Source: a virus. From it: a DNA stretch of 64,000 nt. The notes under the pieces are model-generated. The model had not been told where the DNA came from, made no database searches, and saw only the letters and a list, made by a program, of their open reading frames with translations. The DNA lies in the IMG/VR virus record IMGVR_UViG_3300044814_000017, positions 1 to 64,000 of that record; one strand, 5' to 3'. Both the position numbers and the translations under genes were made by a program. Shown piece by piece: positions 3,737-24,506 of the stretch; positions within the stretch are counted from its first letter, which is position 1, and each line of letters begins with the position of its first letter.

Positions 3737-4165
3737 CTAGGAACGGCGCTGGATGCGCTCTAATGGATTTTGGCTCGCCTCTGCGACGAACGTAGGGTGC
3801 TTGATCTTCATGTGTCGGGCCATCTGCCCTACGGTGCGATTACAGCACGGGCAGACTCCAGCAGCGGAGCGTTTCTTGACCTTTGCTGCTTTGGCCCGTT
3901 CTGCGACTAGTTCCCGTTCCTTCGCCCGGATTTCGTCGTCCCGCTGGGCGAGTTGCTGTTTTATTAGGTCTCGTTCGCGGCGGGTTTTCTCGCTCTCAGA
4001 TTGTTCTTTGCTCCAGCCTTGGGAATGACCATTGCAGCAATGATGGTAGCCGCCTCTTTCGCGCTGGTTGTCCATCATTGCCTTTGGCGCGGTATAGGTG
4101 ACGCCGCACGTAATACAGGTTTGCCATTCGTGAACTGCGCCATTGATCAAAACAGTTCCACTCAT
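3737..4165 (-). CDS. Zinc-finger protein with central coiled coil
   Basis: 142 residues. Three parts: an N-terminal CxxC (CITCGVTY) with a later His/Cys pair (HHCCNGH); a charged coiled-coil stretch from about 55 to 100; and a C-terminal C2H2-like finger CPCCNRTVGQMARHMKIKH. Such proteins in phages usually bind nucleic acid. Start ATG at 4165 overlaps the upstream stop (ATGA). Specific target unknown. Confidence 0.65.
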   Translation of the reverse strand: MSGTVLINGAVHEWQTCITCGVTYTAPKAMMDNQRERGGYHHCCNGHSQGWSKEQSESEKTRRERDLIKQQLAQRDDEIRAKERELVAERAKAAKVKKRSAAGVCPCCNRTVGQMARHMKIKHPTFVAEASQNPLERIQRRS

Positions 4166-14208: not shown

Positions 14209-14449
14209 AACAACTCCAGAAACGGAACTATTCCAGCGCGGACGGCAAGTCTTGGGCAAGACTGGCGGCGGCTTGATCGCCAAACTACTCAAGGCAAAAA
14301 ACAACCAAGTCCCTCTCGCGCGATCGGCAATAGAGATCGCCTCTACGAAAGAAAACCCACGCGAATATATCGGCGCGGTGATTCGTGGCGGGGAGCGCTC
14401 GGAAATGGGCGCGGCTCAGCAATCTGGGTATGGCGATGATTGGTGGTGA
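14198..14449 (+). CDS. Replication-protein C-terminal-like fragment
   Basis: 83 residues, GTG start overlapping the previous gene by 11 bases. GRQVLGKTGGGLIAKLLKAK and NPREYIGAVIRG resemble the C-terminal domain of DUF1376-type phage replication proteins, where it follows a longer N-terminal initiator domain. Here it stands alone, so it may be a replication accessory (helicase loader-like) or a reduced form. It lies directly before the primase-helicase genes. Confidence 0.5.
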   Translation: MTLETTPETELFQRGRQVLGKTGGGLIAKLLKAKNNQVPLARSAIEIASTKENPREYIGAVIRGGERSEMGAAQQSGYGDDWW

Positions 14450-14450
14450 C

Positions 14451-14729
14451 ATGATGGATATCGAGGCTGAGCTTGAGCATATCCTTCGCCGCGTTCCGGT
14501 TTCGAACATGGCTACGCTTGAAGCCCTCAACAGCGATGAAATTCAGGAGGGCTATCGGGATGGATTCGATGGCGAGCCTTGCGGTGACAATCGCAGCCGT
14601 TCTTATTGGCATGGTTGGCGCAACGGGATGATCGACAAGGGACGACTTAGGCCGGATTGGGCGAGTATGTCGCTCGTTCGCGAATATGTCGAATCAACCA
14701 AACGCCAGATGGCCCCTACGGACAACTAG
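14451..14729 (+). CDS. Rmf-like small protein
   Basis: 92 residues from ATG 14451, one base after the preceding stop. EGYRDGFDGEPCGDNRS followed by YWHGWRNGMID is the EGxxA-x-G...YWxGWxxG pattern of ribosome modulation factor-like phage proteins. Whether it touches ribosomes is unknown; the same motif recurs in the GapR-like protein of this window. Confidence 0.5.
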   Translation: MMDIEAELEHILRRVPVSNMATLEALNSDEIQEGYRDGFDGEPCGDNRSRSYWHGWRNGMIDKGRLRPDWASMSLVREYVESTKRQMAPTDN

Positions 14730-14730
14730 G

Positions 14731-15039
14731 ATGGACGACCACACAGAGAAGACCCTGCGCGAGGCCGGTATTCCGACCACGAAATTAAAACACGGTGAGA
14801 ATCACCTGACATGCCCGAAATGCTCTCATCTGCGAAAAAAGAAACACGTTCGCTGTCTTTCGGTGAGGCTGGAACATGACGGCTGGAAATGCTACTGCCA
14901 TCATTGTGGATGGCACACCGGCTCGGGTCAGTCCAGCCGCGCTAAAATGGGCAAAAGAAGCGCGCGGGCTATCCCCGGCGACTTTGGGGCAACTGCCCGT
15001 CGCAAGCGGAATAACATTTTTTCCGGAAGTGGGAGCTAA
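14731..15039 (+). CDS. Primase zinc-finger domain, separate frame from the helicase
   Basis: 102 residues. CPKCSHLRKKKHVRCLSV and WKCYCHHCGWHTG form the zinc-binding domain of T7 gp4-type primases (first pair CPKC, second CHHC), which recognises the priming trinucleotide. In related phages it is the N-terminus of the primase-helicase. Here the conserved part ends at about residue 63 and the rest of this frame looks non-coding, while the matching continuation is in the +1 frame (next gene). Either a frameshift joins them or they act as two proteins. Confidence 0.65.
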   Translation: MDDHTEKTLREAGIPTTKLKHGENHLTCPKCSHLRKKKHVRCLSVRLEHDGWKCYCHHCGWHTGSGQSSRAKMGKRSARAIPGDFGATARRKRNNIFSGSGS

Positions 15040-16372
15040 ACGCCATGCGATATTTTTCCGCTACGCTGATGGATGGATGGCACGGTCATTCCCTGAAAAG
15101 GCGTTTGTGTCGGGCGGCGGCTTTAAGCGTTCGTTTTGGAACCTTGAGGCGGTTCTGCAGGCCAAGTCGGATACGGTCTATATAGTTGAAGGTCAGTTGG
15201 ATGTTGGTGCCTTGGTTGAGTGCGGTATTTCGGTCGACGAAGTTTTAGGAGCGCATGGGGCCAAAGACAAGCCCACGATTGGCGACCCGAAGGAAATGGC
15301 TGGATATGCCTATGTCGAGGAAGCGCTTGAGGCGGGTTTAAATAGGGTAAAGCGTTTCGTTTGGTGCGGCGACGGAGACGGCGCTGGGCATATCCTGCGT
15401 GAGGACATGGTGAAATTGCTGGGCGCGGCGCGGTTCTGGTTCATTGAGTGGCCAGAGGGGATCAAAGACGCCAATGACATGCTGCTCAAAGACGGTGCGG
15501 AGGCGCTACGTGAGTTAGTTTCGGATGGGGCGCTACCATGGCCCGTCAACGGGCTGTACCGCCTCAGTGAGCTTCCTGAGCCCGCTCCGATGGTATTGTG
15601 GGAACCGGGCTTTCCTCAATGGGAGCGGAAGATAATGCTGGCACCGCGAACGTTGAGTGTGGTTACGGGGCATCCGGGGATGGGAAAGACTTTTTTGTGG
15701 AATCAAATTTGGTTTAACGTTGTCCAGAAATACGGAATACCGTTTTGCGGGGCGTCATTCGAGACGCGACCCAAGCCTCATATTAGGCGTCAGATCAGGA
15801 CGCTTCTGACGGGCAAGAGAGAGTGGGAGTTGGATCAACCCGAAACAGTTGCCGCCGATCAATGGATAAACGATAGATATCTATTTTTGGTGCATCCTGA
15901 TCAGCGACCCAATTTGGAATGGTTTTTGGATATGGCTGAAGTAGCCGTCGTTCGTCATGGCGCGCGCATCATTCAATGTGATCCATGGAACCGTTTAGAA
16001 GGCGCGCGGGTGTCAGGTGAGAACGAAACCGATTATATTTTGCGTTGCCTGCGGACGCTTTATTCTTTTGCGGTTGATATGAATTGCCATGTCCAGATTC
16101 TGGCCCATCCGTCCAAAATGGAAGGGGCGCGGCGTGGTCAGCCTCCGATGCTGGAGGACATAGCTGGCAGCCGTCATTGGGACAACATTGTTGACCAAGG
16201 CTTTACAGTTCACCGCCCCAAAATGTTTGAAAAAGGCGAGCGCAAAACGGAAGCCTCGCTCTATCAACGCAAGGCGAGATTCGAGGAATTGGGCTATCCC
16301 TGCAAGCTGGAATTGGACTTCAAGGTCAATCTTGGGAAATACGTTTCGGTCGATTATGAGATGGGAGGCTAG
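14876..16372 (+). CDS. T7 gp4-like TOPRIM primase-helicase
   Basis: 498 residues. TOPRIM: VEGQLDV with the catalytic Glu at 105, and DGDGAG at 166-171. RecA-like hexameric helicase: Walker A GHPGMGKT at 265-272, Walker B IIQCDPWN near 375, then HPSKMEGARR and QRKARFEE. It unwinds the fork and makes primers. The N-terminal zinc finger is encoded upstream in another frame. ATG 14876 has GGTGAGG seven bases upstream, so a zinc-less product like T7 gp4B could be started here; real homology begins near residue 18. Confidence 0.85.
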   Translation: MTAGNATAIIVDGTPARVSPAALKWAKEARGLSPATLGQLPVASGITFFPEVGAKRHAIFFRYADGWMARSFPEKAFVSGGGFKRSFWNLEAVLQAKSDTVYIVEGQLDVGALVECGISVDEVLGAHGAKDKPTIGDPKEMAGYAYVEEALEAGLNRVKRFVWCGDGDGAGHILREDMVKLLGAARFWFIEWPEGIKDANDMLLKDGAEALRELVSDGALPWPVNGLYRLSELPEPAPMVLWEPGFPQWERKIMLAPRTLSVVTGHPGMGKTFLWNQIWFNVVQKYGIPFCGASFETRPKPHIRRQIRTLLTGKREWELDQPETVAADQWINDRYLFLVHPDQRPNLEWFLDMAEVAVVRHGARIIQCDPWNRLEGARVSGENETDYILRCLRTLYSFAVDMNCHVQILAHPSKMEGARRGQPPMLEDIAGSRHWDNIVDQGFTVHRPKMFEKGERKTEASLYQRKARFEELGYPCKLELDFKVNLGKYVSVDYEMGG

Positions 16373-17391: not shown

Positions 17392-17747
17392 TGCCAACCC
17401 TATCCAAAAGCGACCACCGTGCCGTAGTTCGCTACGCAATGGACCGAATAGACGAAGCATTGGCGCAAGCATTAATGCAAGATTTTTGCGCTGCAAATGG
17501 CATCCTGATCCACACCGTTCGGGATGCGAACAATTCGCCATGGGCGATGGATCAGCGTGTCCGGGTGGCGGTATTTCTCCGTAGCAAGCGCATCAAGCAT
17601 GTCGTGATCGCAAAGTGCATGCATCGGCACGTGGATATGATAAAATACTACACAAGTCCGACGCTGCGCCAGCGCAAGCGGGATTATAACCGGCTCAATA
17701 CCGGACGGTGGAGGGAGAGTGTCCAGCCCTTGGAGACGCGCCCGTGA
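17391..17747 (+). CDS. DnaA domain IV-like HTH protein
   Basis: 118 residues. RVRVAVFLRSKRIKHVVIAKCMHRHVDMIKYY resembles the C-terminal DNA-binding helix-turn-helix of DnaA (signature ending with HSTV), but the Ser/Thr of the signature are replaced. Similar stand-alone HTH proteins occur in phages near methylases and replication genes. Its stop overlaps the GTG start of the C5 methyltransferase (GTGA). Confidence 0.5.
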   Translation: MPTLSKSDHRAVVRYAMDRIDEALAQALMQDFCAANGILIHTVRDANNSPWAMDQRVRVAVFLRSKRIKHVVIAKCMHRHVDMIKYYTSPTLRQRKRDYNRLNTGRWRESVQPLETRP

Positions 17748-18556
17748 ACGTACTAGATTTATTCAGCGGCATTGGAGGATTTAGTCTTGGCCTCGAAAGA
17801 GCAGGAATGCGAACCGTCGCATTTTGTGAAATTAATCCATTCGCCCGACACGTCATCGCAAAGCATTGGCCAACTGTCCCTTGCTATGATGACATCCGAA
17901 CCCTCACTTACGAGCGTCTCGCCGCCAACGCCGCAACTGGCGACATCCAAATTGATGTCATCTGCGGAGGCTTTCCATGCCAAGACGTATCGTTCGCGGG
18001 AAGAAGATTGGGGCTGGACGGCGAGCGCAGCGGACTATGGTCTGAATACGCCAGACTTATTGGCGAGATTCGACCCAAAATCGTCATCGTGGAAAACACA
18101 CCAGGCTTGCTTTCTCTCGGAATGGGAATCGTTCTCGCAGACTTGGCCGCGCTCAGGTATGATGCAGAATGGCATTGCATACCAGCTTGCGCCGTTGGTG
18201 CGGATCATCTCCGGGATCGCGTCTGGATCATTGCTTGGCCCAGTGAGGCATATGCTTCCAACGTTGACGGTGAAGGGCAATTACAACGTCAAAGGCATGT
18301 CAAAAACCAGCGGAGACGGGCTGGCGACGGTTTTGCGGAGAACGCTTCCGACTCTGGTTGCTCACGATTACCGGGGAGGAGCGAAGCCGGAATCGGCGGA
18401 ACGCAAACAACTAGATACGGCTCGTGGATTAGACTTGCCATCAAGTCTGCGAATGATTTTCCCCGAGAGCACTGGAATCATAAACCCGTGCTGGGCCGAA
18501 GGTTACATGGGGTTTCCGATGGGAACTATATACATGACTCCCTTGGCTCATTGTAA
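17744..18556 (+). CDS. dcm: C5 cytosine DNA methyltransferase, 3' end displaced by insertion
   Basis: GTG start at 17744. SAM motif DLFSGIGGFSLGLERAG (5-21), catalytic loop GGFPCQDVSF with Cys79, ENTPGLL (ENV motif variant) at 117-123, and DRVWIIAW at 158-165. Genuine coding ends at Asp259 (GVSD, codon 18518-18520). Residues 260-270 and the stop come from an inserted element. The missing C-terminus with the conserved LGNAVVPQIPE helix lies at 19491-19586 and is in frame if the element plus one target copy is removed, giving 290 residues. As found, the enzyme lacks its terminal SAM-pocket helix and is probably inactive. Its DNA is shared with a second reading frame. Confidence 0.85.
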   Translation: MNVLDLFSGIGGFSLGLERAGMRTVAFCEINPFARHVIAKHWPTVPCYDDIRTLTYERLAANAATGDIQIDVICGGFPCQDVSFAGRRLGLDGERSGLWSEYARLIGEIRPKIVIVENTPGLLSLGMGIVLADLAALRYDAEWHCIPACAVGADHLRDRVWIIAWPSEAYASNVDGEGQLQRQRHVKNQRRRAGDGFAENASDSGCSRLPGRSEAGIGGTQTTRYGSWIRLAIKSANDFPREHWNHKPVLGRRLHGVSDGNYIHDSLGSL

Positions 18557-18566
18557 CACTTCGTGA
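17772..18566 (+). CDS. Second-frame ORF overlapping dcm
   Basis: 264 codons in the +1 frame of the methyltransferase gene, open over almost all of it. Segments FHAKTYRSREEDWGWTAS, SSSWKTHQ, WPRSGMMQNG-AYQL-PLV and a C-terminal MGFP match a family I recall from phages, often found with or labelled as DNA methylases, that ends in MGFPIGWTEL. The insertion cuts it after GFPMG; after precise excision the frame continues as GFPIGWTELK and ends at 19566. So both frames look selected. Function unknown; a target-recognition or accessory role for the methylase is possible. Confidence 0.55.
   Translation: MEDLVLASKEQECEPSHFVKLIHSPDTSSQSIGQLSLAMMTSEPSLTSVSPPTPQLATSKLMSSAEAFHAKTYRSREEDWGWTASAADYGLNTPDLLARFDPKSSSWKTHQACFLSEWESFSQTWPRSGMMQNGIAYQLAPLVRIISGIASGSLLGPVRHMLPTLTVKGNYNVKGMSKTSGDGLATVLRRTLPTLVAHDYRGGAKPESAERKQLDTARGLDLPSSLRMIFPESTGIINPCWAEGYMGFPMGTIYMTPLAHCNTS
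18521..18552 (+). repeat. Left terminal inverted repeat of the 962-bp element
   Basis: 32 bp, identical to the reverse complement of 19451-19482; beyond it the two arms retain only partial similarity for about 15 bases. Starts GGGAACTATA at the boundary with TTTCCGAT. Confidence 0.9.
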
Positions 18567-22963: not shown

Positions 22964-23416
22964 ATGACCTCCCCCACCCTCCTATCCCTGGCAGGCAGAG
23001 TAGAATCTCTGACGGGGCGCGATCGGAATATTGCGAACGACGTCCTGTACGCGTGCGGTTGGACGACGCATGAAATCGGTGAAGGTGATAATCGCACCAC
23101 GATTTGGACAGCGCCGCGTGGCGAAGAGTTTACTGACGGCGATCAACCCGACCCGACCGCCTCACTCGACGCCGCGATGACGCTGGTGCCGGAAGGCTGG
23201 GGCTGGAGCGTTGGCGATGTTCATGGGCCGCTAGAAGCATATTCTGGCAGCAGCGTACCTTGGGCTGAGATTTGGACCCGCGATGATCGCGACGTTCAAA
23301 TCCCCGACATGAACTGGGATGGTTGCCGCAACCATCTTAATGCCGCCACGCCTGCGCTCGCACTAACCGCCGCTTCCCTCCGCGCCCGCTCCGCATTGGA
23401 GGCCAGTCATGGGTAA
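22964..23416 (+). CDS. Conserved phage accessory protein, unknown
   Basis: 150 residues. Two blocks (DVLYACGWTTHEIG and MTLVPEGWGWSVGDVHGPLEAY), ending ATPALALTAASLRARSA, resemble small phage proteins that often occur in several copies per genome. Its last codons overlap the tnpB-like start by 8 bases. Confidence 0.55.
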   Translation: MTSPTLLSLAGRVESLTGRDRNIANDVLYACGWTTHEIGEGDNRTTIWTAPRGEEFTDGDQPDPTASLDAAMTLVPEGWGWSVGDVHGPLEAYSGSSVPWAEIWTRDDRDVQIPDMNWDGCRNHLNAATPALALTAASLRARSALEASHG

Positions 23417-24506
23417 GGTGTTGACCTACAAATATCGCATTAAAGACCGGGGCACCCGTAAGGCGCTGCGACGGCATGCGATAGGCATCAATCAGGTCTG
23501 GAACTACCTCAACGGTTACCAGCGCGATATCGAGGAGCGCTATAAGGCCGGCAGGCCTAGCCGCAGATGGCCCAACCATTTTGACCTGACCGGCATGGTG
23601 TCCGGCGTTTCCAAAGAGCTTGAGGTTTCTTCCATCTCTATTGGAGAGGTCTGCCGCACCTATGTGCAGAGCCGGAACGCCAACAAGCGCTCGTTACGCT
23701 TCCGGTCCAGCTTCGGTGCCCGAAGGTCACTCGGTTGGATACCGTTCCGCCGCCCGACTACGGATGGCAACAGCATCACTTACTTGGGAAAGAAATATCG
23801 TTTCTTTGGAGCGAAACGTCGCCCGGTTCCTAATGTCATTAAGACCGGCGCGTTTGTCGAGGACGCGCGAGGCCGCTGGTACGTCTGCTTTACGGTCGAG
23901 GTGCCAGAGCTTCCCGCGGGCGTCGGAGCGATCGGCATAGACCTTGGTCTCAAGACGCTGGCGACCCTCAGCAACGGGGAAACCGTTCCGGCCCTCCAAC
24001 ACTACCGTCGATACCAGGACGCGCTAGCGACCGCCCAGCGGGCCGGGAATAAGCGTCGGGTATCCGCCATTCACGCTAAGATCGCGAACGCGCGCCGCGA
24101 TCATATCCACAAGGCGACCACCAAGATTGCGCGCGAAAACCGTTTGATCGTCGTCGGCGATGTGAACGCGGCTCAGCTTAAGCAGACCAAGATGACGAAG
24201 TCCGTCTCGGATGCAAGCTGGACGATGTTCCGTAAAATGCTTGAATACAAAGCCAGTAGGCACCAAGCAATTTACGTTGAAGCCGACGAACGATTCACTT
24301 CCGTAACCTGTTCTGAGTGCGGTGCGCTCAGTGGCCCGAAAGGTCAAAAAGGGTTGCGAATAAGACAGTGGGAATGCTCGGACTGCGGAGCGTCGCATGA
24401 TCGCGACGTGAACGCAGCCCGAAATATCCTACGTGTCGGGCAAAGCACTTTGCCTCATGCAGATGAAAGCCGGGCGTTCCGGATAGGTGCGACTCATGCC
24501 GGATAG
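23409..24506 (+). CDS. tnpB: TnpB-like RuvC protein, canonical RuvC-II Glu absent, no transposon ends
   Basis: 365 residues, full TnpB length. RuvC-I GIDLGLKTLATLS with Asp178; RuvC-III HDRDVNAARNIL with Asp333; zinc ribbon CSECG (301-305) and CSDCG (323-327). At RuvC-II the usual VVEDL reads VVGDV: Gly250 replaces the catalytic Glu. Glu294 in ADERFTS, just before the ribbon, may substitute, as in TnpB groups reported with a rearranged site. The gene overlaps its neighbours at both ends (8 and 11 bases), leaving no room for IS605 ends or a downstream guide-RNA region. Probably a captured, perhaps domesticated, RNA-guided nuclease or binder. Confidence 0.8.
   Translation: MGKVLTYKYRIKDRGTRKALRRHAIGINQVWNYLNGYQRDIEERYKAGRPSRRWPNHFDLTGMVSGVSKELEVSSISIGEVCRTYVQSRNANKRSLRFRSSFGARRSLGWIPFRRPTTDGNSITYLGKKYRFFGAKRRPVPNVIKTGAFVEDARGRWYVCFTVEVPELPAGVGAIGIDLGLKTLATLSNGETVPALQHYRRYQDALATAQRAGNKRRVSAIHAKIANARRDHIHKATTKIARENRLIVVGDVNAAQLKQTKMTKSVSDASWTMFRKMLEYKASRHQAIYVEADERFTSVTCSECGALSGPKGQKGLRIRQWECSDCGASHDRDVNAARNILRVGQSTLPHADESRAFRIGATHAG

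Follow-up and report, generated by a model that had tools for sequence, protein, structure and literature searches.

The locus described here raises the question whether the primase-helicase of a virus is made as one polypeptide interrupted by a shift of reading frame, or as two proteins, one with the zinc-binding domain and the other with the catalytic domains. The window, which is the whole stretch of 64,000 nucleotides analysed, is part of a 70,208-base IMG/VR virus record (IMGVR_UViG_3300044814_000017). Its plus strand contains an ORF for a zinc-binding protein of 102 amino acids (14731..15039), made up of a zinc ribbon, a variable linker and a conserved C-terminal tail and closed by TAA. 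This ORF overlaps by 164 nt with a TOPRIM-helicase ORF of 498 amino acids (14876..16372, plus strand), which is devoid of the zinc domain, resembles the 56-kDa form of T7 gp4 and lies in the +1 frame relative to the zinc frame. An earlier, sequence-only reading had reported the two offset ORFs; their coordinates, frames, starts and +1 offset agree with the sequence, and the observation is confirmed as real. Its suggestion that together they correspond to a T7 gp4-like protein cut in two is also supported, as distant relatives have both halves fused in one frame. Of the three options which it left, the split gene is upheld, together with a dual-coding overlap which it had not seen, while a sequence error is refuted by conservation among relatives and a programmed frameshift is not supported, the linker showing no conserved site and both the helicase start and the zinc tail with its stop being selected. 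Our data favours a split T7 gp4-type primase-helicase encoded by overlapping genes, in which a zinc subunit with a dual-coding tail would act in trans, and we give this reading a probability of about 0.78. Directly upstream lies an ORF of the family phrog_4460, of unknown function (14385..14729, plus strand). It is likely to be translationally coupled to the zinc ORF, because its TAG precedes the zinc ATG by one base.

The product of the longer ORF has the features of a primase-helicase. It matches the primase/helicase family phrog_239 (5.9e-54), and profile comparison and predicted fold alike relate it to T7 gp4 and Twinkle chains, the closest PDB folds to its model being those of T7 gp4 (5ikn and 1q57, full length). 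The catalytic acidic residues of TOPRIM, E105, D166 and D168, are invariant among 33 relatives. The Walker A motif GHPGxGKT is conserved and invariant at most positions in the alignment of relatives, and the C-terminal part is a RecA/DnaB-type helicase (DnaB_C match, 8.2e-7). The model is disordered at residues 1-15, the part encoded opposite the zinc domain. The N-terminal, covalently attached zinc domain of a T7 gp4-type enzyme is absent from this protein, since the zinc domain is in the other frame with its own stop. The core of the zinc ribbon, from the first to the last Cys of CPKC...CHHC, occupies 14812..14907 on the plus strand; its cysteines are residues 28/31/56/59 of the zinc ORF and are invariant in 35 relatives. 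A search of the window's own record gave no match to the Pfam primase zinc ribbon, and the zinc ORF alone matches weakly. The DNA primase family phrog_47 was matched by 24 of the 35 zinc-family members (best 6.6e-7), and the zinc ORF shares 55-59% identity with the zinc domain of two fused relatives (L015/L016). In the predicted structure residues 1-66, the ribbon, are confident, and the linker and tail are of low confidence and disordered, a predicted layout suggestive of a domain tethered via a short binding motif. A PDB fold search with this model gave no significant match (best E 0.2). A replication gene is thereby identified which was left unannotated in both annotated records checked, a Microvirga ossetica plasmid and the complete genome of the cultured Bradyrhizobium phage BDU-MI-1.

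Part of the evidence for two proteins comes from the tail of the zinc ORF (14971..15021, plus strand). In the zinc frame the tail reads [QK][PR]xD[FL]Gx[AS]xRR[LI]R[YN]G[VI], and in the helicase frame the same region reads SxxTLxxLGVASGTxF. It was found that codon identity at conserved helicase residues over 14972-15016 is 0.69 as compared to 0.36 expected (35 non-redundant members). The synonymous-site excess at the tail is 0.34, against a standard deviation of 0.024 and a maximum of 0.076 in the other windows of the helicase gene, so that helicase synonymous sites are frozen over the zinc tail only. A null for the zinc frame was obtained by fixing the helicase amino acids and resampling the codons. 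Against it the zinc-frame identity excess at the tail is 0.33, with a maximum of 0.068 outside. Zinc-frame stops in the linker and tail are at 3% against 51% under the helicase-only null, and the shared zinc stop is present in 77% of the relatives against 12%. The window itself is without this shared stop; it has TCC-GGA there and terminates four codons further on. Because the sequences are related the p-values are nominal, and the rest of the helicase gene in these sequences served as control.

The choice of codons agrees with these figures. At the tail, third-position diversity of the helicase falls under second-position diversity, the opposite of the pattern elsewhere in the gene. A zinc Arg codon is CGG, CGC or AGG in 35/35 members, and the helicase Ser codon TCG, the commonest elsewhere, is absent there. 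A zinc Gly stays GGA, GGC or GGG while the second base of the helicase codon varies. The helicase threonine of this region avoids ACG and ACA, the zinc residue being F or L in 34/35, and the helicase leucine is TTG in 34/35 where 6 would be expected. The zinc tail is conserved far more than helicase coding explains. These comparative statistics show that the last ~17 zinc codons, which lie within the helicase gene, are selected in both frames. The codon pattern indicates that the selection in the zinc frame acts at the amino-acid level, and the stop counts indicate that in most relatives the zinc stop codon is selected as well. The sequence-only reading had placed the end of zinc similarity and the beginning of helicase similarity at 14920-14930. 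As regards zinc ribbon and helicase domain this boundary is correct, but the resumption of zinc-frame selection at 14971-15021 had been missed.

The helicase gene also has a start of its own. A Shine-Dalgarno-like GGTGAGG (14862..14868, plus strand) stands 7 nt upstream of the helicase ATG (14876) and overlaps a helicase-frame TGA (14864-14866), which closes the frame just before the ATG. In 18 of 35 relatives an ATG accompanied by an SD-like sequence occupies the usual place, as compared to 2.8 expected from zinc coding alone. Two members (L011, L063) have a stop in the helicase frame followed directly by GTG or ATG exactly at the helicase domain, and in most loci of a sister lineage an ATG or GTG is found +31 to +37 past the zinc cysteine. 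These counts point to selection on an independent start of the helicase ORF, and they bear out the earlier proposal of an own start with GGTGAGG recalling T7 gp4B. Three members (L050, L054, L058) are without a convincing helicase start near the usual place, and their helicase may begin upstream. It should be noted here that in L049, L054, L058 and L060 the helicase frame is open across the whole zinc domain, with an ATG at -104 to -146.

The alternative that survives best is a programmed +1 ribosomal frameshift in the linker (14923..14970, plus strand), which would yield a full-length zinc-TOPRIM-helicase protein, the helicase start giving the short form. An overlapping downstream ORF in the +1 frame is indeed present, the +1 offset is invariant over more than 100 loci, as a slip would also demand, and some members are without a clear helicase start. 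However, no stretch is more variable than the linker, its nucleotide diversity being the highest of the region (0.49/0.51/0.64) and its zinc-frame identity near the null. In the linker of the relatives no shared motif, conserved slippery or shift site, pausing stop, rare codon at the junction or other conserved pausing feature was found. Selection in the zinc frame, moreover, persists beyond the only place where a slip is possible, through the tail and the stop, and independent start signals are selected. A frameshift in the linker is therefore unlikely.

It could also be argued that the frozen sites constitute a signal at the RNA or DNA level, such as an origin or a regulatory structure, within the helicase gene, and that the zinc tail is merely its shadow. 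In favour of this, the element is short and sits close to where a replication gene begins. But the changes sit at zinc-frame wobble positions and keep the zinc residues (CGG/AGG, GGN), and folding of 12 tail regions found no conserved RNA fold (RNAalifold -0.62 kcal/mol, no covariation). In addition, sites at this position are also frozen in two sister groups (B1, B2), and each group has a tail motif of its own. We regard a nucleic-acid signal as very unlikely. Sites of the type YCC-TGA direct +1 shifts in antizyme and in phage PSA, and a shift of this kind at the end of the zinc ORF would join the zinc protein to the helicase after helicase residue 42. TCC-TGA or CCC-TGA is indeed the ending of many relatives, and there is selection on the T of the stop codon. 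Against this, the TCC-GGA of the window does not fit such a site, other members have CGC, ACA, GTT, CGA or AGC before the stop, and the T/C of YCC shows no excess, its conservation being due to a helicase Phe codon. Such a join would also omit an N-terminal part of the primase domain which the fused relatives keep in frame, and we hold it to be highly improbable.

The split is widespread among relatives. In the close clade, drawn from IMG/VR and GTDB genomes, the same +1 overlap was detected automatically in 40/40 distinct members with a readable zinc motif (39 relatives and the window), and four further members with variant motifs were found by eye to be split likewise. The Microvirga ossetica plasmid copy and phage BDU-MI-1 share it, so that the comparison of homologues proposed earlier has yielded dozens of relatives with the same split. 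The sole exception seen in the close clade is a broken copy on the chromosome of Devosia sp. A8/3-2 (L025, ~3900-4100). Its zinc domain occupies a third frame, different from those of the helicase and the tail; this copy gives a poor helicase match and looks decayed or mis-sequenced. A sequencing error or decaying pseudogene, for which it speaks that a single-base change would rejoin the frames and that the Devosia copy does look broken, has next to no likelihood, as every other readable close relative is split, cultured and complete genomes among them, and purifying selection acts on both frames. That relatives share the split, and that a short piece of DNA is selected in both frames, marks it as real biology rather than a sequencing error.

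When the BDU-MI-1 helicase was used as query, 327 relatives were found. Among them 73 distinct loci were examined, of which 66 have the same -1 zinc frame, 3 are fused and 4 were unread; the split members of the sister lineage number 65, BDU-MI-1 included. A scan by zinc alignment alone covered 61 loci: 32 fused, 26 split +1, 2 other and 1 unplaced. When L063 and L062 were each used as a single-sequence query, they matched only themselves. In L196 the helicase is in the other frame, and in L197 there is a break within the ORF. At 25-30% identity (L015, L016, L071-L081, L088, L089) zinc, TOPRIM and helicase are found in one frame. A tree of 63 helicase parts has one branch which parts the fused from the split members (SH-aLRT 100), so that one change of state suffices. 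The fused state would be the ancestral one, since T7 gp4 and DnaG are fused.

Taken together, the coding sequence shows a zinc domain that would be made as a separate small protein with its own stop, and a helicase predicted to be translated from a separate +1 ORF with its own SD and ATG. In the split-gene reading the helicase protein would assemble as a ring, the counterpart of the zinc-less 56-kDa form of T7, and the zinc protein would be a trans-acting subunit. In T7 an internal start yields, besides the full-length protein, the 56-kDa form, which unwinds DNA but cannot prime (PMC9198812). Because the zinc-less form of T7 alone makes no primers, the model holds only if the zinc protein acts from outside. 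The conserved basic tail could dock the zinc protein on ssDNA or the helicase-primase and so stand in for the covalent linker that was lost; the docked ribbon would then select the priming site. With its TOPRIM residues intact, the product of the helicase ORF would most simply be seen as a working primase-helicase, given template recognition in trans by the zinc protein. The zinc subunit thus probably acts in trans, docked by its tail. In sister group B3 (L140-L169) the tail region is unselected in the zinc frame, and the tail therefore cannot be the sole route to action in trans. The zinc ORF of B3 is mostly open for 90-166 codons beyond the zinc domain, and a small excess in the zinc frame is seen near codons 60-70. 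If the zinc protein acts as a separate subunit in trans, its ratio to the helicase could set priming.

The locus offers a natural experiment on whether a primase zinc domain can work in trans. By a change of frame, what was a linker within an enzyme would have become a new peptide, now selected inside the gene of its partner. It could be that a widespread phage clade primes with a detachable zinc subunit, through an ancient frame change, a new overprinted docking motif and independently dosed recognition of sites in trans; we put the chances of this wider view at about even. In the part of the open-access literature covered by our search, no description of a split primase or of a zinc domain in another frame was found. 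Elsewhere in the window, an ORF at 17708-18556 encodes a C5 cytosine methyltransferase (PF00145, 7.6e-38) and another at 17772-18566 matches the DNA methyltransferase PHROG phrog_1008 (4.2e-16). These long ORFs are in different frames and overlap by ~785 nt. Since both match methyltransferases, there may be a second overlapping gene pair at 17708-18566. A transposase-like gene lies inside the phage region at 23409-24506 (phrog_506, 1.2e-69).

The nearest known system is T7 gp4 with its 63-kDa and 56-kDa forms. It has the same order of zinc ribbon, TOPRIM and RecA-type helicase as seen here, and the helicase product of the window matches gp4 minus the zinc domain. However, T7 encodes the zinc domain in the same frame and has it covalently attached in one form, whereas the zinc domain of the window has an overlapping gene to itself, complete with a tail and a stop codon. 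Cellulophaga, Flavobacterium and Azospirillum elements, as well as L015/L016 and L071-L081, have fused primase-helicases with homologous zinc, TOPRIM and helicase domains, but in a single ORF with a longer in-frame linker and without an overprinted tail. The primase/helicase of Bradyrhizobium phage BDU-MI-1 (ARQ95261) is split by +1 in the same way, the zinc ORF upstream of it being unannotated; its helicase is 27% identical and starts after the zinc domain, and its zinc protein has its own tail motif, YGxLQRASLAR. In phage T4 the functions are likewise split over two proteins, the gp61 primase and the gp41 helicase, and gp61 has a weak zinc-domain resemblance (E 0.047). T4 keeps the zinc and polymerase domains together and the helicase separate, whereas at the present locus the cut falls between the zinc and polymerase domains.
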